Source of the DNA: Microbacterium esteraromaticum
GTDB lineage: Bacteria; Actinomycetota; Actinomycetes; Actinomycetales; Microbacteriaceae
Assembly: GCF_017303215.1 (NCBI RefSeq)
Contig: NZ_JAEMWU010000001.1
Span: 434,001 to 498,000, forward strand
DNA: 64,000 nucleotides
Direction: 5' to 3'
The notes beneath the pieces are model-generated. The model was not told the origin of the DNA, did not search any database, and worked only from the letters and a program-made list of their open reading frames with translations. A program made the translations under genes and the position numbers. This document shows positions 132-13,501 of this stretch, piece after piece; positions within the stretch are counted from its first letter, which is position 1; the number at the start of each line of letters is the position of its first letter.

Positions 132-1205
132 ATGAGCAGCAGCGGCCGTCGCGCGACCATCGCGGACGTGGCGCGAGAGGCCGGGGTGTCGACATCGACG
201 GCATCCGTGGTCTTCAGTGGCAAGGTCAACGTCGCCGAGGCGACGCGAGAGCGCGTGCTCGCCGCGGCCGACGCGCTCGGCTACGCCGGCCCGGATCCGC
301 GTGCCGCATCGCTGCGCACGGGCCGCAGTGGCATCGTCGGCGTGCTGCTCGGCGGTGATCTGCGCCATGCCTTCCTCGACCCGGTTACGACGGTGATGAT
401 GGACGGCCTGACCGAGGCGATGGCCGCCGACAGCGTAGGTCTGCTGTTGCTGCGCGATGACCCTCGTGGCGCGGAGGCGCCGCCGATCGGCGAAGCGCCG
501 GTGGACGCGGTCGTGCTGATCGGCTGCTCGGCCCGGACGCGTTCGGCACTGGAGACGGTGCGCCAGCGCGGCCTGCCCGCCGTGGTGATCGAAGGCGACG
601 CCGGACCGGATGTTCCCCAGATCACGCTGAATAACCGCGAAGCCAGTGCCGAGATCGCACGCCATCTATTCCGCTTGGGGCATAGACGGGTGAAGGCCAT
701 CACGCTGCCCCTGGATGCGGCACGTGAGCGGAGCGAGTTGACGCCCGAGCGCGAGGCGGCCGCCACGGTGGACGTCACTTTGGACCGGCTCGCCGGTTTC
801 CGTGAGGTGTACCCGCAGGGCGGTGGCGTCTCGGCGGCCGGAAGCCTGGTCGACGAGGGCAACCATGGCGCGCGGATGCTGCTCGCTGATCCGGACGGGC
901 GGCTACGAGACGACCGACCCACCGCGATCGTCGCACAGAGCGATCTGTTGGCCGTCGGCGCGATCCGCGCCGCCGAGGAGCTCGGTCTGCGTGTACCGGA
1001 GGACCTCAGCGTCGTCGGCTTCGACGGCATCTCGGCTGACGGGCTGGGGTCGCGACGCCTGACCACCATCACGCAGCCTGCGCTCGAGAAGGGGCGTGCG
1101 GCGGGCACCCAGATCTCGCGGATGCTGGCCGGGGAGCCGGGGGAGTCGGTGCACTTCACGTGCGTTCTCCGCGTCGGAGGGACCTCGGCCGCCCCGCGTG
1201 CATGA
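132..1205 (+). CDS. LacI family transcriptional regulator
   Basis: A 357-residue DNA-binding regulator. Residues 8-27 form the LacI helix-turn-helix (ATIADVAREAGVSTSTAS), followed by a hinge to about residue 60. From about residue 66 comes a periplasmic-binding-protein-like effector domain ending in the usual GFDGI...T.I.QP region. Length is normal for the family. The ATG at 132 is chosen because the HTH starts only eight residues later. A purine-rich CGGAGG abuts the start with no spacing, so translation may be leaderless or weak. It probably binds the palindrome at 81-104 and responds to the sugar carried by the divergent MFS transporter; the ligand cannot be read from the sequence. Confidence 0.92.
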   Translation: MSSSGRRATIADVAREAGVSTSTASVVFSGKVNVAEATRERVLAAADALGYAGPDPRAASLRTGRSGIVGVLLGGDLRHAFLDPVTTVMMDGLTEAMAADSVGLLLLRDDPRGAEAPPIGEAPVDAVVLIGCSARTRSALETVRQRGLPAVVIEGDAGPDVPQITLNNREASAEIARHLFRLGHRRVKAITLPLDAARERSELTPEREAAATVDVTLDRLAGFREVYPQGGGVSAAGSLVDEGNHGARMLLADPDGRLRDDRPTAIVAQSDLLAVGAIRAAEELGLRVPEDLSVVGFDGISADGLGSRRLTTITQPALEKGRAAGTQISRMLAGEPGESVHFTCVLRVGGTSAAPRA

Positions 1206-1414: not shown

Positions 1415-2332
1415 ATGTTGCATGTTCTGTTGTCGGCTGCCGTCTTGGCAGGCGCCGCCGTGGCCGCTGGTGCGACCATGCACCGCACTGCTCGCTGGAT
1501 CGACCGCGAGTTCCGCTATGGCCGAGTGCTTCGCAGCGTCGTTGCGGCGATCGGCATCGCGCTCGCGACCAGCGCGATGGCCATCGTGCTCACCACCGGG
1601 CACGCGCACGACATCGCGGGACTGTTCGCCTGCTGCGCCACCTTGTTGCTCGTCAGTGTGCTGTTCATCGCGCCGTACCTGCGCCGAACGGTGTCGGTGA
1701 CGCTGCGGCCGCGTCGCATCCTCGCGATCGGGGCGCATCCGGACGACCTGGAGCTCGCCTGCGGTGCGACCCTCGCGAAGCTCGTCGACCAGGGGCACGA
1801 GGTGCACACCGTCGTGATGAGCCACGGTGCGTCGGGCGGCGACGAGCACACGCGCGCATTGGAAGCGCGTAACGGGTCGCTGTACCTGCGAGCCACGACC
1901 GTCAACGTGCTCGACTTCGAGGACACCGCGTTGCGTGAGCACGAGCAGGGCATGATCGCCGCGATCGAGCGTGCGATCCGCGACGTACGCCCGGATGTCG
2001 TGCTCACCCACTCGGCGCATGACCAGCACCAGGACCACCACGCCGTCCACCAGGCGACCATGCGCGCCGCGCGACAGTGCCCATCGATCCTCTGCTACGA
2101 GAGCCCGTCGGTGACCCGCTCGTTCTCGCCGGAGTTCTTCGTCGACGTCTCGACCCACGTCGACGTCAAGGTGCGCGCCATTGAACTGCACCGCGACCAG
2201 CGGAACAAGCCATACATGACCGGCGCGCGTGCGCGCGCGACAGCCGCGTTCCGCGGGGGCCAGGCCAGGGTCGGCTTCGCCGAGGGGTTCGAGGTCGTGC
2301 GCCTCGAGGCGTCGGCGATCGGCGAATTCTGA
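1415..2332 (+). CDS. Membrane-anchored PIG-L family deacetylase
   Basis: Predicted zinc-dependent N-deacetylase of the PIG-L/LmbE family, fused to an N-terminal membrane part of about three helices (residues ~3-21, 41-60, 67-88). The metal motif AHPDD is at 107-111, with a second metal and catalytic stretch HDQHQDHHAVH at about 202-212. Family members remove acetyl from N-acetylglucosamine-type sugars. The ATG at 1415 is preferred because GGGGGA lies six bases upstream; a GTG at 1394 is possible but poorly supported. It heads a four-gene coupled cluster with an ATP-grasp ligase, a GT2 synthase and a glycosidase-like protein, and its stop overlaps the next start (TGATG). Substrate is inferred, not shown. 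Confidence 0.85.
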   Translation: MLHVLLSAAVLAGAAVAAGATMHRTARWIDREFRYGRVLRSVVAAIGIALATSAMAIVLTTGHAHDIAGLFACCATLLLVSVLFIAPYLRRTVSVTLRPRRILAIGAHPDDLELACGATLAKLVDQGHEVHTVVMSHGASGGDEHTRALEARNGSLYLRATTVNVLDFEDTALREHEQGMIAAIERAIRDVRPDVVLTHSAHDQHQDHHAVHQATMRAARQCPSILCYESPSVTRSFSPEFFVDVSTHVDVKVRAIELHRDQRNKPYMTGARARATAAFRGGQARVGFAEGFEVVRLEASAIGEF

Positions 2333-3234
2333 TGCGCGTTCTGCTCACGGGCGTCGGAGGCCCTGCCGGGCGCTCGCTCGCCCGGCAGCTCTCAGCGCGC
2401 GGCCACTGGGTTGCCGGAACTGATCTGCGCGACACCGGTGCTGAGGTGGATGCGTTCCGTCGGGTGTGCGCCGTGTCGGACCCCGCGTACCTGCCGACCC
2501 TCCACGAACTTGTGGGGGAGTGGAGTGTGGATGCTGTCATCCCGAGCATCAGCGAGGAACTGCCCCTACTCGCCGGCCAGCACGCGCTCCTTCCGGTGCC
2601 GGTCCTGATCGGCTCGCCCGATGCCGTCGGGACGGCCGACGACAAGCTGCTCACCGCGCAGCGATTGCAGCAGGCGGGGGTTCCCGTGCCGCGATTCGCC
2701 GGCCCCGCGGACTTCCCGTCTGCCGCGGACGCCGTGAGCGCCTTTGGGGGACCGGTGATCGTCAAGCCGCGCGTGGGGCGGGGAGGACGTGGGGTACGAC
2801 TGCTCGACGTGTACGAATCCGCCGGGCCCATCGCCGAGGGCTTCTGGGCCGATCTCGACGAGGGGAGCATCGTGCAGGAGTTCGCACCCGGCGCGGAGTA
2901 CGCGCCGGTGCTCTTCCGCGACATCGACGGCGCGTTCCCGGTCTGCACGGTCCTGCGCAAGACGGCGTTGAAAGACGGCGCCGTCGGCAACGCGGTCTCG
3001 GTTGTGCGCGTCGAGGGCACAGAAGATGAGGACGTGCGATCGGTCGCCCGCGCCGCTGCCGAAGCGCTTGATCTGCACGGCCCGATCGACATCGACGTGC
3101 GTCGCCGCGCGAACGGGATGCCGGTGGTGCTCGAGATCAACGCCCGCTTCGGAGCGAACAGCGCTCATGCCCCGGAGCTGCTCGATGCCGCGCTCGCGTC
3201 TCTGTCGGAACGTACCGCGGCGGCGCGCGTATGA
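2332..3234 (+). CDS. ATP-grasp domain protein (carboxylate-amine ligase-like)
   Basis: A 300-residue ATP-grasp enzyme. The N-terminal pre-ATP-grasp Rossmann-like part starts with a glycine-rich loop (TGVGGPAG, residues 6-13). The ATP-grasp fold has the nucleotide lysine in VIVKPRVGRGGRGV (143-156), the adenine-side segment VQEFAPGAEY (181-190) and the magnesium-binding EINARFGAN (268-276). The architecture resembles small CarB-like ATP-grasp proteins. The family activates a carboxylate as an acyl phosphate and usually couples it to an amine. It overlaps the deacetylase by one base and the glycosyltransferase by four, so the three are made together. I infer it may acylate amines freed by the deacetylase; a nucleotide-sugar or small-molecule role is equally open. 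Confidence 0.8.
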   Translation: MRVLLTGVGGPAGRSLARQLSARGHWVAGTDLRDTGAEVDAFRRVCAVSDPAYLPTLHELVGEWSVDAVIPSISEELPLLAGQHALLPVPVLIGSPDAVGTADDKLLTAQRLQQAGVPVPRFAGPADFPSAADAVSAFGGPVIVKPRVGRGGRGVRLLDVYESAGPIAEGFWADLDEGSIVQEFAPGAEYAPVLFRDIDGAFPVCTVLRKTALKDGAVGNAVSVVRVEGTEDEDVRSVARAAAEALDLHGPIDIDVRRRANGMPVVLEINARFGANSAHAPELLDAALASLSERTAAARV

Positions 3235-4568
3235 GTCTGATGCAGGTCGTTCAGACTATTGCGATCCTGCTGTTCGCGGTGAGTGTGGTCAAACTCGTCT
3301 TCGTGCCGCTGGCGCTGTGGTTCGAGGCGCGTCTGCGCACGACCCCGTGGCGCCGTGCGCGGCTGAGAGCGGGGCCTGGCCCAGGAGTGCGCGGGTTCGC
3401 GGGAAGGTCCGCGCGACGGCGCAGCTCACGACACCTGCGGTACCTGGACGGCACCACGGTGTCGGTCATCATCCCGGCATACAACGAGGGCATCGTGCTG
3501 CGCAATTGCGTCGACTCGGTGATGCGCAGCGACTATCCGCATGTCGAGGTGATCATCGTCAACGATGGCTCCACCGACGACACCGGCGACGTCATGGCAG
3601 ACATCGTCCACCGGCATCCGAGCGTCCGTGCCATCCACCAGGCCAATGCGGGCAAGGGTGCCGCTCTCAACCGGGGGATCGCCGAGGCGAGCGGTGACGT
3701 ATTGCTGTTCGTCGACGCTGACGGCCTGTTCACGCCACGCACGATCGACTGGTTGCTGGTGGGGCTCTCATCACCGGACGTCGGCGCGGTCTGCGGTGAC
3801 GATCGCCCGGCGAACCCCGACCGACCGCTCACCCAGATGCTCTCGGTGATGAGCCACGTCGGTACCGGGCTGGTCCGCCGCGCCCTCTCGCTGCTGCACT
3901 GCCTACCGATCGTCTCGGGCAACATCGGTGCCTTCCGCGCATCGCTCGTGCGCGAGATCGGCGGCTTCCGCGAAGACACCATCGGCGAGGACCTCGAACT
4001 CACCTGGCGGGTGTACGCCGCGGGCTACCGCGTGGTCTTCCAGCCCCGTGCCATCGTCTACGCCGAATCGCCCTCGACCCTGCGCGGACTCTGGCGTCAG
4101 CGGGTGCGCTGGTCGCGCGGACTGCTGCAGACCACACGCATCCACTGGCGCCTGATCGGCAATCCGAACCACGGGGTGTTCGGTAGCTTCCTGGCTCTGA
4201 ACACCTTCGCGATGATCATCGCACCCCCCTCGCAGATGGTCGTGCTGATCGCGCTTGGCGGGGCCCTCCTGCTCGAGCCGCAGCCCGCCGCTCCCGAGGT
4301 GATGGCAGTGCTGTCGTGGCTAGGGGTCTTTCTCAGCCTGGCACTGGTGCTGCTCGCGATCGTGTTGAACGCGGCCTGGCGCGACCTGCGCTACCTGTGG
4401 ACGCTGCCGTTCTGGCCGATCTACTCGATGGCGATGGGCCTGACCATGGTCACCGCGCTCGTGCAAGAGGTGCGCGGTGCCCCGGCCCGCTGGAACAAGC
4501 TGCAGCGCACCGGTGTGGTCACCGGCGGTGCGGTTGCGGGCATGATCCCGGCCGGGAAAGCCGCCTGA
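3231..4568 (+). CDS. Processive family 2 glycosyltransferase (PgaC/IcaA/hyaluronan-synthase-like)
   Basis: A 445-residue integral membrane glycosyltransferase. One N-terminal helix (about residues 6-30) precedes the cytoplasmic GT-A domain: VIIPAYNE at 79-86, UDP-binding NDGS at 111-114, metal-binding DAD at 162-164, catalytic GED at 252-254 and QRVRW at 290-294. Several C-terminal membrane helices follow. The QxxRW signature and membrane layout are those of processive polymerases such as poly-N-acetylglucosamine synthase PgaC. The start overlaps the ATP-grasp stop (ATGA) and the end overlaps the next gene (TGATG). It probably polymerises and extrudes a polysaccharide; the sugar is not determinable from sequence alone. 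Confidence 0.88.
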   Translation: MSLMQVVQTIAILLFAVSVVKLVFVPLALWFEARLRTTPWRRARLRAGPGPGVRGFAGRSARRRSSRHLRYLDGTTVSVIIPAYNEGIVLRNCVDSVMRSDYPHVEVIIVNDGSTDDTGDVMADIVHRHPSVRAIHQANAGKGAALNRGIAEASGDVLLFVDADGLFTPRTIDWLLVGLSSPDVGAVCGDDRPANPDRPLTQMLSVMSHVGTGLVRRALSLLHCLPIVSGNIGAFRASLVREIGGFREDTIGEDLELTWRVYAAGYRVVFQPRAIVYAESPSTLRGLWRQRVRWSRGLLQTTRIHWRLIGNPNHGVFGSFLALNTFAMIIAPPSQMVVLIALGGALLLEPQPAAPEVMAVLSWLGVFLSLALVLLAIVLNAAWRDLRYLWTLPFWPIYSMAMGLTMVTALVQEVRGAPARWNKLQRTGVVTGGAVAGMIPAGKAA

Positions 4569-5848
4569 TGTCAGGGGTGTCCCCGCCGCGCTCCTGGCGT
4601 CGGTCGATCACCGGCATCCTCGCTCTCGTCGTGCTCGTGGGTGCCATCATCGCTACCGCCGTCATCGCCACACGTGATGCGCCCGCGAAGACGCCCGCGG
4701 CGACGGCGTCGACGCCCACGGAGCGTCCGCGCGCCGAGGTGGTCATTCCGACACCGACGCCCGAGCCCATCACGGTGACGTGCCCGTCTGAGACGGCCCC
4801 GCCACCCGCATCCGACATCCCCGCCCACCGGGCGGTGAATTTCGGGATTGAGGACCTCGTCGACGAACGCCCCGGCCACCTGGAGGCGCTCGCCGCGAGA
4901 CTCGACCAGGTCGGCGCCAACACCGTCTCGATCTCGGTCGGACGACTCGACTGGATCGAGTTCCCCTGGGCCGGCAACGAACGCAACCAGGCGTCGGATG
5001 TCATCAGGACCGGCCGCGACTACGTCGGCGAAGCCGTGAACGTCTTCCGCTGCGCGCCGGACGGCACAAGCCGTACCGTCATCCTCGGCATCGACACGTT
5101 GTTCGGGCGCGACATCCAGCGCGGCACGGTACCGGCCGGGCAGACGGTGGGGGGATGGTCATCCGACCTGTTCGCGAGCCTGAGCGCCTGGAAGAGCGAT
5201 GAACTGAGCGGCCGCCTGACCGCGCTCGCCGAAGAGCTGGCAGTGCGCTACCAGCCCGATGCCATCAACATCACCGAGCTCTTCTTCGACACCACCGTGT
5301 ACGGGCCGGCCGATCTGGTCGACTTTCAGGACGTCAGCGGCCTGTCCGAATGGCCGCGCCGGGACGACGGTGGCGTCGACACGCATCACCCGGCGGTGAG
5401 CGCATGGAAGACCGACGCCCTGACAGGGGTGCTCGCCCAGCTCGATCAGGTGCTCACCCCGCACGGTGTTGAACTGACCGCCGACGTGCGCGGGCCGATA
5501 GACGTGCACACGCCCACGCGCGCCGACATCGGACAGGACTACCCCCGCATGCTCGAGCACGCCGATCGCCTGAACGTCTGGGACTTCCCCGGGGTCAACC
5601 AATGGATCGGGGTGCTTGACGCCGATGACTACGCCTCTGTGCTGTTCGGTCCGGCGCCCGAGAGCTACTCGCTCGAGATCGGGTTGTGGCTCGGCGGTGG
5701 CGCGATCTCGCCGGACGTGCTTCGCAAAGAACTGGCGGTGGCGAGCGACTTCGGCATCCGGTCGGTCTCTGTGACGCCCGCCTCGTTGATGACCGATGCG
5801 CACTGGAAGGTGCTGCAACAGGAATGGCGCGACAAGACCACCCCGTAG
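4568..5848 (+). CDS. Membrane-anchored glycosidase-like protein
   Basis: A 426-residue protein with a basic N-terminus, a single membrane helix at about 14-35, a Pro/Thr/Ala-rich linker to about residue 85, and an extracytoplasmic domain of about 330 residues. That domain looks like a glycoside-hydrolase-like TIM barrel: AVNFGIEDL, a strand ending INITELFFD, then ADVRGPIDVHTPTRADIG and LNVWDFPG, with many D/E at strand ends. No standard family signature is certain. Position beside a PIG-L deacetylase and a PgaC-like synthase recalls the C-terminal hydrolase half of PgaB, which acts on partly deacetylated poly-GlcNAc. That role is inference. It starts at the ATG overlapping the glycosyltransferase stop and ends 59 bases before mrpA. 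Confidence 0.65.
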   Translation: MSGVSPPRSWRRSITGILALVVLVGAIIATAVIATRDAPAKTPAATASTPTERPRAEVVIPTPTPEPITVTCPSETAPPPASDIPAHRAVNFGIEDLVDERPGHLEALAARLDQVGANTVSISVGRLDWIEFPWAGNERNQASDVIRTGRDYVGEAVNVFRCAPDGTSRTVILGIDTLFGRDIQRGTVPAGQTVGGWSSDLFASLSAWKSDELSGRLTALAEELAVRYQPDAINITELFFDTTVYGPADLVDFQDVSGLSEWPRRDDGGVDTHHPAVSAWKTDALTGVLAQLDQVLTPHGVELTADVRGPIDVHTPTRADIGQDYPRMLEHADRLNVWDFPGVNQWIGVLDADDYASVLFGPAPESYSLEIGLWLGGGAISPDVLRKELAVASDFGIRSVSVTPASLMTDAHWKVLQQEWRDKTTP

Positions 5849-5907: not shown

Positions 5908-8880
5908 ATGCTGTTGCTCCTTGCCGTGTTCCTCGCGGGAGCTCTGCTGCTCCCGTTCCTGGTGCGCTGGCTGGGAGCGCAGGCGTTCGTGCTCGGGGCC
6001 CTGGTGCCCGGCGCCGCCTTCGTACACGCGCTCACGCAGACACCCGCTGTGCTGTCGTCCGAAACGGTGCCCTTCGAGTCGTACAGCTGGATCCCGCAGC
6101 TCGGGCTGAACCTCTCGATGCGGATGGACGTGCTCGGGTGGGTGATGACGCTCATCGTCACCGGTGTCGGCGCACTCGTGCTGCTCTACTGCCGGTGGTA
6201 CTTCCACGATGACGCCGCCGACGTCGGGCAGTTCGCCGGCGTGCTCCTCGGATTCGCCGGCGCGATGTACGGACTGGTGCTCACCGATGACCTGATCGTC
6301 ATGGTCATGTTCTGGGAGCTCACCAGCATCCTCTCCTATCTGCTCATCGGCCACTACCGGCGGCGTGCTTCGAGCCGGCGTGCTGCGCTGCAGGCACTGC
6401 TGGTGACCACTCTCGGCGGACTCGTGCTGTTCGTCGGTGCGATCCTCCTGGTCGTCGACACAGGTACCTCCAGCATTCGCGAGCTGCTCGAGATCGCGCC
6501 CACCGGACCCCTCATCGACGCCGCCGTGGTGATGCTGCTGATCGGTGCGGTGAGCAAGTCCGCCCTCTTCCCATTCCACTTCTGGTTGCCCGGTGCGATG
6601 GCCGCGCCGACCCCGGTCAGCGCATATCTGCATGCCGCCGCGATGGTGAAGGCCGGTATCTACCTCATCGCACGGTTCGCGCCCGTCTTCGCCCTAGCCG
6701 AGCCCTGGCGACCGATCGTCATCGGCTTGGGCGTGTTCACCATGCTGCTCGGCGGTATCCAGGCGCTGCGCGAGACCGACCTGAAGCGCATCCTCGCGTT
6801 CGGCACCGTCAGCCAGCTGGGCTTCCTGTCGGTTGTGATCGGCTACGGCACGCCGGCCGCCGCGCTGGCGGGCCTGGCACTGGTGCTCGGACACGCACTG
6901 TTCAAGTCAGCACTGTTCCTCATCGTCGGCATCATCGACCGGCAGCTCTCCACACGCGACATCGACGAGCTGTCGGGCGTGGGCCGGCAAGCCCCGGTGC
7001 TGGCGACAGCGGCATTCATCTCGGCCGCATCCATGATGGGCCTCGCCCCCACGCTCGGCTTCGTCGCGAAGGAATCCGCGCTCACCGCACTGCTGGAAGA
7101 CGCCGAGCACGGCTCGATCTGGGGCGGGGTGGCGCTCATCGGTGTCGTCATCGGGTCTATGCTGACCGCCGCATATAGTGCACGATTCCTCTGGGGAGCG
7201 TTCTGGCGCAAGAAGGACGCCACGGGCGCTTCTATGCCTGATACGGAATGGCCAGATCCGCCGGTGGGCTTCCTGTCTGCCCCGATCATCCTGGCCGGCG
7301 TCACGGTCGCGGCAGGACTGGGCGCGCCGACGGTCGACACCGCCCTGCAGGGGTACGCCATCACGGCGCTGCCAGCGGGTTCGGCGGCCTCGCCCGAACC
7401 CGGTCACCTGGCGCTCTGGCACGGGCTCGAACCGGCGCTCTTCCTGTCTCTCGGAGCGATCGCTGTCGGTATCGGACTGTTCATCCTCAGCATCCGATCC
7501 GGTTGGGACCGGCGGCGCAAGCTGCTTTGGTTCACGGCGGCCGACGCGTACTACGCGGTCATGCGCGGCATCGACCGCGTCTCGGTCTTCACGACCGGAC
7601 TCACTCAACGCGGATCCCTGCCTCTCTACGTCGGCACCATCTTCATCGTGCTGCTCGCCGCCGAGGCGACCGCACTCGTGGCCGCCGCCCCCGAACGGAT
7701 CGAGCTGTCGGCGTGGCACACGCCGGCGCAGATCGTCGTCACCCCCGTCATGGCGATCGCCGGCGTGATCGCGGTGCGAGCGCGCAAGCGCTACACGGGC
7801 GTCGTGCTGGTCTCGGTCACCGGACTCGGCATGGTGGTGCTGTTCGCGACCAGCGGTGCGCCCGACCTCGCACTCACGCAGATCCTCGTCGAGACGGTGA
7901 CGATGGTCACCTTCGCGCTGGTGCTGCGGCGGCTGCCAGCACGGATGGGAGAGCACAACGCCTCGGTGGGCAGGCTACCCAGAGCGGTGCTGGCCATCGG
8001 CGTCGGTGTCACGATGGCGTTCGTCGCGATCGTCGCGACCCAGGCACGCATCTTCGAGCCGATCTCGACCGAGTTCAGCGACCTGGCGTACAACCTCGGG
8101 CACGGCAAGAACGTCGTCAACGTCGCACTGGTCGACCTGCGCGGGTGGGACACCATGGGCGAGCTCAGCGTGCTCGTGCTGGCGGCCACCGGGGTGGCAT
8201 CCCTCGTCTTCGTCTCGCATCGCGCTGACCTGCTCTCGGCCACACGCGACCTCCCGGCGACCGGTCGCCGGCGCCGGGAACGACGCCCCCTGGTCGAGAC
8301 CGATCAGGGACTGCGGTTCCAGACCTCCGAGAACCAGGGTGCGCCGCGCGCCTGGCTGGTCAGCGGGCAGCAGATCAAAGCCGAAGACCGTTCGATCCTG
8401 CTCGAAGTGATCGTGCGGGTGCTGTTCCACACCATCATCGTGGTGTCGATCTACCTGCTGTTCGCCGGGCACAACCTGCCGGGCGGCGGCTTCGCCGGTG
8501 GCCTCGTGGCCGGCATGGCCATGGTGATGCGCTACATCGCCGGAGGGCGCTGGGAACTCGGCGCGGCCGCGCCGACCGACGCCGGGCGCCTGCTCGGAGC
8601 CGGCCTCGCCCTCGCCGTCGGCGCAGCCCTGATGCCGCTCTTCTTCGGCATGGCACCCCTGCAGAGCGCGGTGTGGGAATGGGAGGTGCCGGTTCTCGGT
8701 CATCTCGAGCTCGTGTCGTCGACGATCTTCGACATCGGCGTCTACCTGGTCGTGATCGGCCTGGTGCTCGACGTGCTGCGCAGCCTCGGTGCCGAGGTCG
8801 ACCGGCAGACCGCCCAGCTGCGGCATCCCGAGCGCGAGTTCACGGCGGCACCACCGCGCACCGGGGGGAGAAGCAGCTGA
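5908..8880 (+). CDS. mrpA: Na+/H+ antiporter subunit A with fused MrpB domain
   Basis: A 990-residue polytopic membrane protein, largest subunit of the Mrp multisubunit cation/proton antiporter. The N-terminal two thirds is NuoL-like, with the family segments ELTSILSYLLIGHYR and FPFHFWLPGAMAAPTPVSAYLHA, plus a lysine-bearing GHALFKSALFLIVG. The last ~160 residues form the MrpB domain (FHTIIVVSIYLLFAGHN, LPGGGFAGGLVAGMAMVMRY), which is a separate gene in Bacillus. The start has a GAGGAG ribosome site at about 5897. It opens a seven-subunit operon whose members overlap by 1-4 bases. The complex exports Na+ for pH and salt homeostasis. Confidence 0.95.
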   Translation: MLLLLAVFLAGALLLPFLVRWLGAQAFVLGALVPGAAFVHALTQTPAVLSSETVPFESYSWIPQLGLNLSMRMDVLGWVMTLIVTGVGALVLLYCRWYFHDDAADVGQFAGVLLGFAGAMYGLVLTDDLIVMVMFWELTSILSYLLIGHYRRRASSRRAALQALLVTTLGGLVLFVGAILLVVDTGTSSIRELLEIAPTGPLIDAAVVMLLIGAVSKSALFPFHFWLPGAMAAPTPVSAYLHAAAMVKAGIYLIARFAPVFALAEPWRPIVIGLGVFTMLLGGIQALRETDLKRILAFGTVSQLGFLSVVIGYGTPAAALAGLALVLGHALFKSALFLIVGIIDRQLSTRDIDELSGVGRQAPVLATAAFISAASMMGLAPTLGFVAKESALTALLEDAEHGSIWGGVALIGVVIGSMLTAAYSARFLWGAFWRKKDATGASMPDTEWPDPPVGFLSAPIILAGVTVAAGLGAPTVDTALQGYAITALPAGSAASPEPGHLALWHGLEPALFLSLGAIAVGIGLFILSIRSGWDRRRKLLWFTAADAYYAVMRGIDRVSVFTTGLTQRGSLPLYVGTIFIVLLAAEATALVAAAPERIELSAWHTPAQIVVTPVMAIAGVIAVRARKRYTGVVLVSVTGLGMVVLFATSGAPDLALTQILVETVTMVTFALVLRRLPARMGEHNASVGRLPRAVLAIGVGVTMAFVAIVATQARIFEPISTEFSDLAYNLGHGKNVVNVALVDLRGWDTMGELSVLVLAATGVASLVFVSHRADLLSATRDLPATGRRRRERRPLVETDQGLRFQTSENQGAPRAWLVSGQQIKAEDRSILLEVIVRVLFHTIIVVSIYLLFAGHNLPGGGFAGGLVAGMAMVMRYIAGGRWELGAAAPTDAGRLLGAGLALAVGAALMPLFFGMAPLQSAVWEWEVPVLGHLELVSSTIFDIGVYLVVIGLVLDVLRSLGAEVDRQTAQLRHPEREFTAAPPRTGGRSS

Positions 8881-9440
8881 TGGATGTGTCGCTCACCCTC
8901 ATCGTCATCATGGCCGTGCTGTTCGCCGCCGGTGTCTACGCGATGCTCGAACGCAGCCTCACCCGCGTGCTGATCGGCTTCCTGCTGCTCGGCAACGCGA
9001 CCAATCTGCTGCTGCTGATCGTCATGGGGGTTCCGGGAAGCGCGCCGTTCTACGGTGCGGAAGGCCCGGTCAGCGACCCGCTGCCACAGGCGTTGACGCT
9101 GACCGCGATCGTCATCACATTCGCCGTCTCGGCGTTCCTGCTCGCCCTGATCTACCGTTCGTGGCAACTCGGTCAGGCCGATACGGTCGAGGACGACGAG
9201 GTCGACATCGCGCTCCGCGAGCGCACGGATGCCGAAGAGGAGCTGTTCGACGATGAATCGGAGACCGGCGACGACGACGCCACCACCGACTTCGTCGATG
9301 TCGTCACCTCGCCCATCACCGTGCTGAACATGCGCGACCACCCGTCGATTCGGGACGACGCCCCGATCGACACACCCATGGCTCCGCGGGCATCCGACGC
9401 CCCACGCGGGGCATCCGACGAACGGGAGCCGAACGCATGA
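8880..9440 (+). CDS. mrpC: Na+/H+ antiporter subunit C
   Basis: NuoK-like small membrane subunit of the Mrp antiporter. Residues 1-100 hold three helices with the family pattern LIGFLLLGNATNLLLL and DPLPQALTLTAIVITFA. The protein is 186 residues, longer than the usual 110-120, because of an acidic, low-complexity C-terminal tail (about 100-186) rich in D/E and ending in a short repeated RASDAP/RGASDE segment. The ATG overlaps the mrpA stop by one base, and GGGGGGAG lies about 9 bases upstream. It shares four bases with mrpD. Confidence 0.93.
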   Translation: MDVSLTLIVIMAVLFAAGVYAMLERSLTRVLIGFLLLGNATNLLLLIVMGVPGSAPFYGAEGPVSDPLPQALTLTAIVITFAVSAFLLALIYRSWQLGQADTVEDDEVDIALRERTDAEEELFDDESETGDDDATTDFVDVVTSPITVLNMRDHPSIRDDAPIDTPMAPRASDAPRGASDEREPNA

Positions 9441-11002
9441 GCGCACTCGTCCCCCTCATCGTGATGCTGCCGCTGCTGGGCGCGGCTGTCGCGCTCATCT
9501 TCGGCCGCAATCCGCGCCTGCAGATCATCGTGACGACGGGCACACTCGCGGCAGTCTCGATCATCGCCGCTGTGCTGTTGGCCGCCGTGCATGCCGCCGA
9601 CCAACCCTTTGCTGTGTCGGTCGGGGGATGGCCCGTGCCGTTCGGCATCATCCTGTACGTCGACCGGTTCGCGGCCCTGCTCGTGCTCGTCTCGAGCATC
9701 GTGCTGCTGGCGGTGCTGTTGTTCTCGATCGGTCAGGGATCTGCCGACGGTGACGGCGAGACGCCGATCTCGATCTTCAACCCGACGTACCTGATCCTCG
9801 CCGCCGGCATCTTCGATGCATTCATCGCCGGCGACCTGTTCAACCTCTACGTCGGCTTCGAGATCCTGCTCGTGGCGTCGTACGTGCTGATCACCCTGGG
9901 CAGCACCGAGTCGCGCATCCGCACCGGAGCGGTGTACATCGTCGTGTCGCTCGTGTCATCGATCCTGTTCCTGGCCGCGATCGCGATGATCTACGGAGCC
10001 GTCGGCACGGTCAACATGGCGCAGATCGCCGAACGGGTCGCCCAACTGCCGCAGGAGACGCAGCTGGTGCTGCATCTGCTGCTGCTGGTGGCCTTCGGTA
10101 TCAAGGCGGCCGTGTTCCCCGTGTCGTTCTGGCTCCCCGACTCGTATCCCACCGCGCCCGCACCGGTCACAGCGGTGTTCGCCGGGTTGCTGACCAAGGT
10201 CGGTGTCTACGCGCTGATCCGCACAGAGACGCAGCTGTTCGCATCGAACAGCGTCGACGATCTGCTGATGATCGTGGCGCTGGCGACGATGATCGTCGGG
10301 GTGCTCGGCGCGGTCGCGCAGGCCGAGCTGAAGCGCATCCTGTCGTTCACGCTCGTCAGCCACGTGGGCTACATGATCTTCGGCCTCGCGATCGCCACCG
10401 AGGCAGCCATCGGGGCGACCGTCTACTACATCGTTCACCACATCGTCGTGCAGACGACGCTGTTCCTCGCGGTCGGCCTGATCGAACGCCAGGCGGGCAG
10501 CACCTCGATCCTGAGAGTCAGCGGCCTGATGAAGGCCGCACCATTGCTGGCCGTGCTGTACTTCGTACCCGCCATCAACCTCGGAGGCCTGCCCCCGTTC
10601 TCGGGATTCATCGGCAAGATCGGACTCTTCGAGGCCGCGGCCTCGGTGGGAACGCCGTTGATGATCGTGCTGATCTTCGGGGGCATCCTGACCTCGCTCC
10701 TCACCCTGTACGCGCTGATGCGGGCGTGGAACCTGGCGTTCTGGCGCGAGGACGAAGAGGGCGCCGAGATCGCCACCTCTACCGGGCGTCTGGCGCACCT
10801 CGGGAACGCGCCGGCGGCGGATGTCCAACAGGAGACGCGTGCCATCCCCGCGATCATGAAGATCGCGACCGGCGGCATGGTCGCGGTGACGCTCGCGCTG
10901 ACCGTGTTCGCCGGACCGCTCTACGCTCTCTGCGACAGCATCGGTACCGGTCTGCTGCAGCCGGTCACGCTCACGCAGATCGATGAGGAGGCCGGTCGAT
11001 GA
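9437..11002 (+). CDS. mrpD: Na+/H+ antiporter subunit D
   Basis: A 521-residue NuoM/NuoN-like proton-translocating subunit with about 14 membrane helices. Recognisable family segments include GDLFNLYVGFEILLVASYVL, the lysine region FGIKAAVFPVSFWLPDSYP, LKRILSFTLVSHVGYM and LGGLPPFSGFIGKIGL. Length is typical. Its ATGA start overlap with mrpC and end overlap with mrpE show tight coupling. In Mrp complexes subunits A and D carry the antiport channels. Confidence 0.95.
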   Translation: MSALVPLIVMLPLLGAAVALIFGRNPRLQIIVTTGTLAAVSIIAAVLLAAVHAADQPFAVSVGGWPVPFGIILYVDRFAALLVLVSSIVLLAVLLFSIGQGSADGDGETPISIFNPTYLILAAGIFDAFIAGDLFNLYVGFEILLVASYVLITLGSTESRIRTGAVYIVVSLVSSILFLAAIAMIYGAVGTVNMAQIAERVAQLPQETQLVLHLLLLVAFGIKAAVFPVSFWLPDSYPTAPAPVTAVFAGLLTKVGVYALIRTETQLFASNSVDDLLMIVALATMIVGVLGAVAQAELKRILSFTLVSHVGYMIFGLAIATEAAIGATVYYIVHHIVVQTTLFLAVGLIERQAGSTSILRVSGLMKAAPLLAVLYFVPAINLGGLPPFSGFIGKIGLFEAAASVGTPLMIVLIFGGILTSLLTLYALMRAWNLAFWREDEEGAEIATSTGRLAHLGNAPAADVQQETRAIPAIMKIATGGMVAVTLALTVFAGPLYALCDSIGTGLLQPVTLTQIDEEAGR

Positions 11003-11580
11003 CCCCCGAATCGAAGCGCGGCGCCGTGCGCGACCTGCTGCTGCAGCTGCCGTTCCTGCTCTGGCTGGTCGTGCTGTGGATGCTGCTGTGGCACCAGTTC
11101 ACGCCGCTCGCCCTGGTCAGCGGGCTGATCGTCGCGATCTTCGTCACCCGGGTCTTCCGCCTGCCGACCGTCGAGCTGGTCGGACGGGTGAACCTCTGGT
11201 ACGTCCTGGTGTTCATCGTGCTGTTCCTGGGCGCCGTCGTCGCCGGTGCGATCAGCGTGGCGATTCAGGTGTTCGACTTCCGCCGTCAGCCCGGGGCTGC
11301 CATCATCGAGATCCCGCTCCGATACGCGGATGACATCGTCATGACCCACGTGGCCGTCACCGCCTCGCTCATCCCCGGATCACTCGTCGCAGAGAGCGAC
11401 CGTGACCGTCGCATCCTGTACCTGCACGTCATCGGGGTCCGTAACCGCGCCGACGTCGACGCTTTTCGCGACGGCGTGCTTCGGTGGGAGAAGCGCATCG
11501 TTCGCGCCGTCGGATCGCCGGAGCAGTATCGTGCTCTCAAGGCCGATGAGTCCCGTGCCCGTGCCGGAGGTGCACGATGA
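10999..11580 (+). CDS. mrpE: Na+/H+ antiporter subunit E
   Basis: A 193-residue MrpE with two N-terminal helices (LPFLLWLVVLWMLLW, LALVSGLIVAIFVT) and a third around residue 70-95. The cytoplasmic domain carries the family pattern PGAAIIEIPLRYADDI followed by TASLIPGSLV. It overlaps mrpD and mrpF by four bases each. MrpE is an accessory or assembly subunit of the antiporter; length and order within the operon match the family. Confidence 0.93.
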   Translation: MTPESKRGAVRDLLLQLPFLLWLVVLWMLLWHQFTPLALVSGLIVAIFVTRVFRLPTVELVGRVNLWYVLVFIVLFLGAVVAGAISVAIQVFDFRRQPGAAIIEIPLRYADDIVMTHVAVTASLIPGSLVAESDRDRRILYLHVIGVRNRADVDAFRDGVLRWEKRIVRAVGSPEQYRALKADESRARAGGAR

Positions 11581-11846
11581 GCCCTCTGATGGTGACAATC
11601 CTGGTGGTCTTCGCCGTGGCCGCGCTGCTGTGCGTGGTGCGGATCGTCAGCGGACCATCGATCCTCGACCGCGCGGTGGCGTCAGATGTGCTGCTGACGC
11701 TCGTGATGTGCGTGTTGGGCGCTGAGATGGCGATCAACGGTCATACCCGCAACGTGCCGGTGCTGCTCATCATCGCCGCCGTTGGCGTTTTCGGGTCGAT
11801 TGCCGTCGCGCGTTATGTGGCGCGAAGGGACAACACGACATCATGA
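11577..11846 (+). CDS. mrpF: Na+/H+ antiporter subunit F
   Basis: An 89-residue membrane protein with three helices. The middle carries VRIVSGPSILDRAVASD, the R.V.GPS..DR.VA.D pattern that identifies MrpF/PhaF. It ends in a short basic tail. Coupled by ATGA overlaps to mrpE and mrpG. Functions as a small structural subunit of the cation/proton antiporter. Confidence 0.93.
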   Translation: MSPLMVTILVVFAVAALLCVVRIVSGPSILDRAVASDVLLTLVMCVLGAEMAINGHTRNVPVLLIIAAVGVFGSIAVARYVARRDNTTS

Positions 11847-12232
11847 ACGTGCTGGAACTCGAACTGCCAGAGGCCGTCGCCGACACGATCGTGCTCGTGC
11901 TCGTGCTGATCGGTGCGATCCTGTGCCTCTCGGCCGCGGTCGGTCTGCTGCACTTCCGCGATGTGCCGTCCCGGCTTCACGCGGCGACCAAGCCGCAGGT
12001 GCTGGGACTGCTTCTGATCTGCCTGGCGATCGCCGTTTCGCAGCGGACGGTCGGCGGCATCCTGCTGGGCCTGGTGATCAGCACACCGGTGATCCTGCTG
12101 CAGTTCGTCACCGCACCGCTGTCTGCGCACATGGTCGGACGCCAGGCGTATCGCAACGGCACCATTCAATCGCGTGACCTGGTCGTCGACGAGTACGCCG
12201 AGTCGAAGCGCACCCCGCCGGCCGCTGGCTGA
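11843..12232 (+). CDS. mrpG: Na+/H+ antiporter subunit G
   Basis: A 129-residue last subunit of the Mrp operon. Three helices carry the family segment GLLHFRDVPSRLHAATKPQV, the MrpG pattern G..R.PD...R.HA..K. The C-terminus is hydrophilic, and the stop codon lies inside the first unit of the 19-bp tandem repeat at 12227. No clear terminator follows; transcription may end in the palindromic region 12309-12389. Confidence 0.93.
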   Translation: MNVLELELPEAVADTIVLVLVLIGAILCLSAAVGLLHFRDVPSRLHAATKPQVLGLLLICLAIAVSQRTVGGILLGLVISTPVILLQFVTAPLSAHMVGRQAYRNGTIQSRDLVVDEYAESKRTPPAAG

Positions 12233-12492: not shown

Positions 12493-13404
12493 ATGCCTGT
12501 CTCGAAGCCGACCGTCGCTCAGCGTCTTGCAGACCTGCAGCGGATCCGTATCTACAGCCGAGCGGACCTCTTCGACCAGGGGCTCGGCGCGCGCGGCATC
12601 ACCGCAGCGGTGCGCGCCGGCAGACTGTTCCGACTGAGACGCGGGCACTACGTCACCCATCAGGTCCCCGACGACATCGCCGACGCGGTGCACACCGGCG
12701 GTCGCATCGGGTGCGTGACGCTACTGCACCTGATCGGCGTCTTCGTTCTGGAGAAGCCCGCGGCGCATGTGCACGTGTCGCCGCAGCTCTCACGCAGCCG
12801 TCACCGTCGATCTCGCTCCGCCACGATGCACTGGAGTCCGTGTCACGAGCCGGGGACTGCGCACGCGGTATCGGTATGGGATGCCGTGCGTGAGTCCATC
12901 CGGTGCCAGGCGCCCCGTGCGGCGATCGCGACCGTGGACAGCGTGCTGCACCACCGTCTGCTGACACGGGAGCAGATCGTCCGGATCTTCCGCAGCCTGC
13001 CCGCGAGGTTCCAGGCGCTTCTGCCTCTGGTCGACGCCTCGGCCGAGTCCGGACCCGAGACATTCGTCAGGCTCATGCTGCGCGCTCTGGGCGTGCCCTT
13101 CGAGACTCAGGTCACGCTGGTCGGCATCGGCCGCGTGGATTTCGTGGTCGATGGATGGCTGATCATCGAATGCGACAGCCGGGAGTTCCACGAGGGATGG
13201 GATCAGCAAGTCGAGGATCGGGCGCGTGATCTGATGGCCGCGCAACTCGGATACGTCACGATCCGGCCGATCGCGGCCGATATCTTCAATCGGCCTGACC
13301 GAGTGCGGGCAGCCATCACGGACGTGATCGCAGTGCTCGGACCGCTGTTCGAGGGTCGGCGGCGTTCACAACTCCGGAGAAACGGGCGATCTGGCGGGGC
13401 TTGA
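12493..13404 (+). CDS. AbiEi-like HTH plus DUF559 (Vsr/PD-(D/E)XK-like) domain protein
   Basis: A 303-residue protein. Residues about 20-60 resemble the winged-helix start of type IV toxin-antitoxin AbiEi proteins (ADLFDQGLGARGITAAVRAG, then RGHYV). The C-terminal part, about 185-275, resembles DUF559 endonuclease-like domains: ESGPETFVRLMLRALGVPFE with E189, then VDFVVDGWLIIECD with D216, E226 and D228 as likely metal ligands. No AbiEii toxin partner is adjacent. The gene stands alone between two palindromic elements, and its last ~14 codons, including the stop, lie within the right-hand element. The ribosome site is weak. Possible roles are an orphan antitoxin, DNA repair or restriction nuclease, or a factor tied to the repeats; none is proven. 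Confidence 0.7.
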   Translation: MPVSKPTVAQRLADLQRIRIYSRADLFDQGLGARGITAAVRAGRLFRLRRGHYVTHQVPDDIADAVHTGGRIGCVTLLHLIGVFVLEKPAAHVHVSPQLSRSRHRRSRSATMHWSPCHEPGTAHAVSVWDAVRESIRCQAPRAAIATVDSVLHHRLLTREQIVRIFRSLPARFQALLPLVDASAESGPETFVRLMLRALGVPFETQVTLVGIGRVDFVVDGWLIIECDSREFHEGWDQQVEDRARDLMAAQLGYVTIRPIAADIFNRPDRVRAAITDVIAVLGPLFEGRRRSQLRRNGRSGGA

Positions 13405-13448
13405 CCGCGGGTAGCCCGGAAAACCCGAGAATCTCCGGAGTTGCGAAC
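13364..13448. repeat. REP-like palindromic element (right flank, overlaps gene 3' end)
   Basis: Seventeen-base arms at 13364-13380 and 13432-13448 pair with one mismatch; the core CAACTCCGGAGA/TCTCCGGAGTTG is perfect over 12 bases. The roughly 50-base interior contains secondary pairing (GGGCT with AGCCC). The left arm and part of the interior are translated as the C-terminus of the DUF559 protein, whose stop is at 13402-13404. On the other side it lies just past the 3' end of the leftward acylase gene. Confidence 0.85.
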
Positions 13449-13454
13449 AGGGGC

Positions 13455-13496
13455 GGGGGTGCGGATGCCAGGGACGGGGGTGCGGATGCCAGGGGC
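13455..13496. repeat. 21-bp tandem repeat, two copies
   Basis: Units 13455-13475 and 13476-13496 share GGGGGTGCGGATGCCAGGG and differ only in their penultimate base. They sit between the palindromic element and the acylase stop codon. Each contains the locally frequent word CGGATGCC. Confidence 0.85.
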
Positions 13497-13501
13497 AGGG
13501 G

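Follow-up and report, generated by a model that had tools for sequence, protein, structure and literature searches.

A recurrent PIG-L, ATP-grasp, GT2 and glycosidase-like gene cluster of Microbacterium esteraromaticum as a candidate exopolysaccharide machine with amino-sugar editing

We analyzed a stretch of 64,000 nucleotides from Microbacterium esteraromaticum (contig NZ_JAEMWU010000001.1, positions 434,001 to 498,000; hereafter the window), with the focus on four overlapping genes at 1415-5848, encoding a PIG-L deacetylase, an ATP-grasp ligase, a glycosyltransferase of family 2 (GT2) and a glycosidase-like protein. The cluster is real, recurrent and coherent, and appears as a variant of synthase-dependent exopolysaccharide systems, the chemistry of which we infer from its parts. 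As the initial annotation of the stretch had suspected, no described pathway with exactly this set was found in the open-licence literature, nor any paper there in which PIG-L is joined with ATP-grasp. Our preferred interpretation, held at a probability of about 0.5, is that the four genes constitute a compact synthase-dependent exopolysaccharide machine, editing the N-acyl group of an amino sugar on the cytoplasmic side. It builds on direct observations, i.e. the gene set, its order, coupling and recurrence, three family memberships, the catalytic motifs and a confident barrel model.

In the proposed scheme, PIG-L at the inner membrane face would strip the acetyl group from N-acetylglucosamine (GlcNAc) or a similar N-acetylhexosamine, on the precursor or the growing chain end, and the ATP-grasp enzyme would spend ATP to re-acylate the resulting amine with a different group, most probably an amino acid. 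GT2 would polymerise and extrude the glycan, and the membrane-anchored barrel, which resembles glycoside hydrolase (GH) family 153, would cut or trim it outside. Editing may concern each monomer or the growing end only, the latter, end-capping version following the logic of NodC, NodB and NodA. The four genes are:

1415-2332, forward strand: PIG-L (CE14-type) N-deacetylase with three N-terminal membrane helices (residues 4-22, 42-60 and 67-85) and intact AHPDDLE and HQDH motifs
2332-3234, forward strand: ATP-grasp ligase of 300 amino acids, ExNxR intact, predicted fold nearest to 2pn1
3231-4568, forward strand: membrane GT2 synthase, PgaC/NodC-like, with DGSTD, DAD, GED and QRVRW motifs
4568-5848, forward strand: glycosidase-like TIM-barrel protein with an N-terminal membrane segment (residues 16-34); nearest solved fold the PgaB C-terminal domain (GH153), with Cwp19 tied in VIA-align

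Coupling and recurrence of the cluster

Open reading frames (ORFs) and sequence confirm the four coupled genes that the initial annotation had placed here. PIG-L and ATP-grasp overlap by 1 base (TGATG at 2330-2334), ATP-grasp and GT2 by 4 (ATGA at 3231-3234), and GT2 and the glycosidase again by 1 (TGATG at 4566-4570). Junctions were then surveyed in 81 rows (the window, L008 and L029-L107) for start codons that would let neighbours overlap by 1 or 4 bases. Such a codon exists for PIG-L/ATP-grasp in 35 of 55 same-strand cases, for ATP-grasp/GT2 in 43 of 77 and for GT2/glycosidase in 32 of 53, four of the latter 53 pairs being fused. The chance expectation is about 15%, because among unrelated frame ends (n = 3366) 43% carry [AGT]TGA and 2.5% the one-base form, a background that one third of downstream frames would fit. 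The G+C content of the four genes (0.685) does not differ from that of the window (0.689).

The same four-gene order, proposed at the outset as something to look for in other actinobacteria, is present on an Arthrobacter plasmid, in another species of the genus and in five genomes of the family. In these seven clusters, 19 of 21 junctions have a start codon that allows an overlap of 1 or 4 bases, and the two exceptions would be an 11-base overlap (L022) and a 2-base gap (L023). Since it recurs in other genomes, the gene neighbourhood is more than chance.

A contig search with the GT2 alignment was exploited to extend the comparison, the best 80 of 310 GT2 relatives yielding 79 loci that were selected by GT2 alone and surveyed by profile search; from the stop-to-stop-frame table only presence and junction counts were used. 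The loci are not independent, as six of the genomes also fed the profiles (with identical GT2 rows) and near-duplicates occur, for example four from Actinotignum. ATP-grasp accompanies GT2 in 77 of the 79, PIG-L in 75 and the glycosidase in 52. Both loci without ATP-grasp (L099 and L102) lie on contigs of 3.6 and 5.6 kb, and three of the four without PIG-L end early (L054, L099 and L100). The fourth, from Corynebacterium glaucum (L085), lacks PIG-L despite a full flank and has a shortened ATP-grasp frame. The idea of a joint pathway had been tied to conservation of the ATP-grasp gene with its partners, and its presence with GT2 in 77 of 79 loci supports that idea. Judged by record titles, the hosts are Actinomycetota together with metagenome-assembled genomes titled Chloroflexota, Methanosarcina, Proteobacteria, WOR-3 and Aminicenantes.

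Recurrence does not equal ubiquity. The glycosidase gene is found in only 3 of 366 genus genomes (the window genome, the same species and one other species), and conservation of the cluster across the genus was rejected on this ground; draws from the family and the class gave 7 of 398 and 4 of 394 genomes, with the window genome counted in each. A contig search with the single glycosidase sequence as query returned no relative. Across the phylum, 7 of 296 genomes, including that of the window, match the ATP-grasp protein at E 1e-20, the six others being weaker (87-128 bits vs 429). Three of these six have adjacent PIG-L and GT2 genes, with GT2s that fall outside the cluster clade in the tree described below, a fourth lacks GT2 and shows part of a PIG-L gene where its stretch ends, and the remaining two lack both. 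In the window genome itself, the next ATP-grasp match reaches 47.9 bits, and the cluster PIG-L profile detects no second PIG-L.

Several loci depart from the standard arrangement. Arthrobacter horti (L033, 2047-10486) has two PIG-L/GT2/GH sets in tandem behind an ATP-grasp gene, and four Arthrobacter loci (L037, L039, L040 and L041) have a second ATP-grasp homologue (251-270 bits) downstream of the cluster at about 12600-13600, which in L039 comes after a 386-residue ORF without Pfam match; genes of the helix-turn-helix/EPSP-synthase type and of GCS2 lie upstream of the cluster in the same locus. The order PIG-L, ATP-grasp, GT2 is kept in the Methanosarcina assemblies L076 (6054-10275) and L081 (1745-4802), the former with a borderline GH16-like gene downstream (22.4 bits vs a cut-off of 22). 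In Asanoa (L094, 9220-17052), a very long ORF follows GT2, its first 1427 residues containing beta-helix and CBM96 domains, possibly representing a surface partner.

Enzyme families, predicted topology and the case for a polymer

The family labels initially given to the first three proteins are borne out by Pfam scores above cut-off, with PIG-L (PF02585) at 97.6 bits (cut-off 28.2), ATP-grasp_3 (PF02655) at 54.3 (23.2) and Glyco_tranf_2_3 at 123.4 (27). Together with the motifs, these memberships fit the proposal that the enzymes are suited to deacetylation and subsequent amide formation. AHPDD and HxDH are present in 75 of 76 rows with PIG-L, the exception (L031) ending at a contig edge. ExNxR is found in all 12 aligned ATP-grasp proteins, and the corresponding regular expressions in 72 of 78 rows.

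Hydropathy, charges and fusions were combined to assess on which side of the membrane the enzymes may act. By simple hydropathy and a hand count, the 56 rows in which PIG-L is not fused to a receiver domain (REC) have three helices before the catalytic domain in 37 cases, two in 15, one in 3 and none in 1 cut row. Positive charge is located between helices 1 and 2 and after helix 3 in the five rows inspected. This pattern, along with the fusions of tetratricopeptide repeats (TPR) on the outside and of REC domains, both described below, predicts a cytoplasmic PIG-L catalytic domain. The ATP-grasp model (pLDDT, predicted local distance difference test, of 92.1) is a soluble fold over residues 1-294. 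The initial annotation had envisaged a polymer that is first made, then deacetylated and finally acylated; this order is probably wrong, for with PIG-L inside and ATP-grasp soluble both would act before or during polymerisation. Thus, the amine is probably exposed, and probably re-acylated, at that stage. Editing after synthesis is the order of poly-N-acetylglucosamine (PNAG) systems and does not fit the predicted topology.

The fold of the ligase is compatible with the step assigned to it. VIA-align places 2pn1, titled as a carbamoyl-phosphate-synthase large subunit, nearest (Z 26.7), ahead of PylC (25.0), biotin carboxylase (24.6) and Ddl (23.3), while Foldseek lists PurK first with 2pn1, L-amino acid ligase and PylC close behind. 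PylC couples an amino acid with an amine. Together with other amide ligases of the ATP-grasp family, it shares fold and ExNxR motif with the cluster protein, with the difference that carboxylases score equally. The fold hence fits amide formation on an amine without proving it, and the acid involved can only be guessed at.

The fourth protein has no Pfam family above cut-off (DUF4015, 'putative glycosyl hydrolase', at E 0.037 only), and its initial label as glycosidase-like is borne out by structure prediction: the model shows the eight strands of a TIM barrel (mean pLDDT 80.7, 240 of 426 residues at 90 or above). The suggested likeness to the C-terminal part of PgaB was recovered as well, with PgaB taking Foldseek matches 1-8 (best E 3.1e-14) and Z 27.9 in VIA-align 2 (319 residues, 3.0 A), where Cwp19 ties at Z 27.9 (307 residues, 3.5 A) and the first other protein follows at 24.1. 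The likeness to PgaB and Cwp19 is one of fold; by sequence, hhalign against PgaB is not significant with either 13 rows or a 65-row GH set, the non-significant local alignment from the latter following the barrel strands in sequence, 1 through 8. Passages of PMC5933820 name D474 of Bordetella PgaB as the likely catalytic Asp. In our model Glu237 follows the strand 232-236 and by strand order would occupy this place, at the end of strand 4, an uncertain mapping. By simple pattern and hydropathy rules, 48 of 50 unfused copies carry either a lipobox-like motif or a membrane/signal segment, predicting a glycosidase outside the cell. A lone homologue in a sixth family genome (L025, 7243-8403) has genes for LemA and an AI-2E transporter as neighbours and none of the other three cluster genes; in its TEL motif, Ser replaces the Glu.

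For GT2, the best NCBIfam model is PgaC_IcaA (TIGR03937), with 198.2 bits where the cut-off asks for 422.3. GED-type and QxxRW patterns are found in 80 of 80 GT2 rows, QxxRW alone being no proof of processivity. The strict DGS pattern is missed by 14 rows, the window (NDGSTD) among them, and the strict DAD pattern by 3. In the tree, the cluster GT2s form a clade of their own, outside PgaC/IcaA, that includes the non-polymerising references ArnC and YfdH on very long branches and from short fragments; BcsA sits on a very long branch too, and OpgH was left out as it did not match the GT2 profile. We take the placement of ArnC and YfdH as an artefact, of a type about which the tree program itself cautions, and the tree as not settling polymerising against non-polymerising. 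The grouping that the initial annotation had asked about is accordingly mixed, with curated models nearer to PgaC than to HpnI (198 vs 40 bits) and a separate clade with ArnC and YfdH.

A diderm-type version of the locus adds to the picture. In all five such loci, titled Nitrosomonadales, Deltaproteobacteria (two), WOR-3 and Aminicenantes, GT2 and GH share one frame (L101 ends at a contig edge), with a membrane segment between the domains in four of the five and below threshold in L102. For the glycosidase to be outside in these fusions, a conserved W-K/R segment preceding the final helix would also have to lie in the cytoplasm, as the gating loop does in hyaluronan and cellulose synthases. 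Each locus also holds a TPR/beta-barrel-like ORF (partial in L102) with a signal-like start, judged by eye, in the four complete cases, TPR in three of five and a strand-rich C-terminal part, for which a beta-alternation test, a weak one, gave z of 1.9 to 3.1. The TPR part weakly matches PgaA and BcsC models. The TPR domain of PgaA is an interaction partner of PgaB and probably a PNAG-binding module, according to PMC9384988. The PIG-L frames of the five loci are enlarged to 610-661 residues by an N-terminal part that is TPR by Pfam in L103 and matches the neighbouring TPR ORF in all five by BLAST. An N-terminal helix occurs in four of five (not in L104), by which the repeats would lie outside and PIG-L inside. 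TPR/barrel, GH, GT2 and deacetylase would together make up a PgaA-like layout for synthase-dependent export, which we take as the best sign of an exported polymer. Polymer formation is thus suggested by the GT2 class, the GH153-like partner and the TPR/beta-barrel-like partner of the diderm-type loci, the ligation step likewise being a proposal.

A number of these findings weigh against the interpretation as an exopolysaccharide machine. The PgaC_IcaA score stays below its cut-off and the GT2s branch outside PgaC/IcaA. The two helices seen in 15 of 56 rows would, if taken at face value, flip the PIG-L domain. Biotin carboxylase ties with PylC and PurK tops the Foldseek results, so that the fold of the ligase does not reveal its substrate. 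Cwp19, a hydrolase of another kind, equals PgaB in VIA-align, and the link to PgaB is not significant at the sequence level. Moreover, the glycosidase is missing from 27 of the 79 loci and is hence not essential.

Competing explanations and known systems

The strongest competitor, unlikely in our estimate, is a Nod-factor-like end-capping. GT2 would make an oligo- or polysaccharide, and PIG-L and ATP-grasp would modify nothing but its non-reducing end during synthesis, much as NodB and NodA follow NodC; the cap would fix the chain length or turn the product into a signal. The three-step division of labour is that of NodA, NodB and NodC (in role and place of action; the nod gene order was observed), namely a chitin-type synthase, a deacetylase and an enzyme re-acylating the freed amine; GT2 also matches the NodC model at 83.3 bits, its cut-off of 550 not being reached, and the chain end would be reachable for a cytoplasmic enzyme. 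NodB is however a CE4 enzyme and NodA an acyltransferase working without ATP, the nod stretch inspected has no GH153-like partner, and GT2 is nearer to PgaC than to NodC (198 vs 83 bits). The TPR/beta-barrel-like partner and the outer-face glycosidase suit a bulk polymer better.

Slightly less probable is a polymer of the PNAG type, in which PIG-L replaces the CE4 deacetylase and ATP-grasp serves something else, e.g. a peptide, a protein tail or a lipid. The likeness to pgaABCD and icaADBC is considerable: PgaC/IcaA is the best curated model of GT2, the barrel is GH153-like, an amino-sugar deacetylase is included, and the diderm-type loci contribute a TPR and beta-barrel-like protein. PgaB in addition cleaves partly deacetylated PNAG with free glucosamine, as passages of PMC5933820 describe. 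On the other hand, the deacetylase is PIG-L and predicted to be cytoplasmic, unlike in PNAG systems, with no CE4 domain detected by Pfam in the four cluster proteins or the two flanking ones, and the GH is separate and anchored, or fused to GT2, rather than to the deacetylase. The additional ATP-grasp ligase is also the most constant partner of GT2 (77 of 79, vs 75 for PIG-L and 52 for GH), and PIG-L yields the kind of amine such a ligase could use. According to an operon survey (PMC7112194), the GH domain accompanies pga operons of Gram-negative bacteria only, whereas the GH153-like domain recurs here in Gram-positive clusters; neither PIG-L nor ATP-grasp occurs in the main text of that survey.

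We consider it improbable, and more so than the two readings above, that the cluster makes a glycolipid in the manner of HpnI and HpnK, with GT2 adding one GlcNAc to a lipid, PIG-L deacetylating and ATP-grasp aminoacylating it. The predicted cytoplasmic PIG-L and a GT2 tree compatible with non-polymerising relatives agree with such a route, as do ceramide glucosyltransferase chains that match the GT2 profile (26qs, E 1.9e-5). This match amounts to 26.8 bits, far under the 79.5 bits of hyaluronan synthase; the HpnI model yields 40.2 bits, with its cut-off of 310 not reached, and the GH153-like barrel and TPR/beta-barrel-like partner would be left without a role. A small-molecule pathway akin to those for mycothiol and bacillithiol (GlcNAc-X to glucosamine-X to acyl-glucosamine-X), whose plan likewise combines PIG-L with a ligase and whose BshB1 model gives PIG-L 86.4 bits, is very improbable, considering the unfitting membrane synthase and membrane-anchored barrel and that the BshB1 and MshB (31.2 bits) models stay under their cut-offs of 182.5 and 224.35.

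If the preferred reading of an exopolysaccharide machine holds, the cluster would represent a surface-glycan machine with amino-sugar editing on the cytoplasmic side, unlike PNAG, and N-acylated hexosamine glycans are predicted.

Receiver-domain fusions and genomic surroundings

The most surprising part of the system is the combination, in one locus, of a histidine kinase with a PIG-L protein fused to REC. An N-terminal REC precedes PIG-L in 20 of 20 minus-strand cases by Pfam (L049, 12155-13267, and 19 further loci), with hosts among Promicromonosporaceae, Cellulomonadaceae, Sanguibacter, Mumia, Nocardioides, Microlunatus and Luteimicrobium. The phospho-acceptor Asp and the acidic residues of REC are invariant in the alignment, and the loci sit in one GT2 clade of 25 rows (SH-aLRT, Shimodaira-Hasegawa-like approximate likelihood ratio test, 98). 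BLAST finds a protein resembling the Mumia histidine kinase in all 20, between GH and REC-PIG-L in 16, the kinase domains being confirmed by Pfam in Mumia and the other loci resting on BLAST likeness. Outside this clade, a histidine kinase lies downstream in three of seven Pfam-scanned loci without GH (L077, L086 and L105).

Sections of PMC5847659 remark in general on REC domains joined to enzyme outputs. The present proteins share this architecture, here with the histidine kinase in the same locus, and differ in that the output is a PIG-L deacetylase within a polysaccharide cluster. The main texts of two response-regulator census papers contain no occurrence of PIG-L, LmbE or deacetylase, and no paper combining PIG-L or LmbE with response-regulator terms was found in the open-licence literature. 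Tentatively, and leaning towards doubt, one may picture a new exopolysaccharide class, an N-aminoacyl or otherwise N-acylated poly- or oligo-hexosamine, with N-acyl chemistry set inside by the deacetylase-ligase pair and, in one large clade, a deacetylase that is itself a response regulator, through the phosphorylation of which a histidine kinase would switch the chemistry of the surface polymer without transcription. The interchangeable PIG-L partners (membrane helices, TPR scaffold or REC receiver) raise the question of direct phosphorylation control of polysaccharide chemistry.

Two genes flank the cluster:

132-1205, forward strand: LacI-type regulator, probably outside the cluster
5908-8880, forward strand: MrpA/MnhA-type Na+/H+ antiporter subunit, outside the cluster

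A scan of the locus for regulators, terminators and promoters gave nothing of use. A perfect palindrome, AATCGAAACGTTTCGATT, is found upstream of the LacI gene at 84-101 and is likely a LacI-family operator; no second copy exists in the window at up to 3 mismatches. Membership of the LacI regulator in the cluster was rejected, given this single palindrome and LacI relatives that adjoin the antiporter gene in genomes without the cluster. Among 12 genus relatives with an antiporter match, six were inspected, and in all six the LacI and MrpA-type genes border a single site that lacks the four genes; the spacing is less than 100 bases in one (L142) and elsewhere 1.6-3.5 kb, filled with other sequence. 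It follows that the four genes occupy, as one block, a site that in these relatives holds either nothing or something else. Downstream of the cluster, the window continues at 5908-12232 with an Mrp-type Na+/H+ antiporter-like gene set, the first gene of which is assigned by Pfam.

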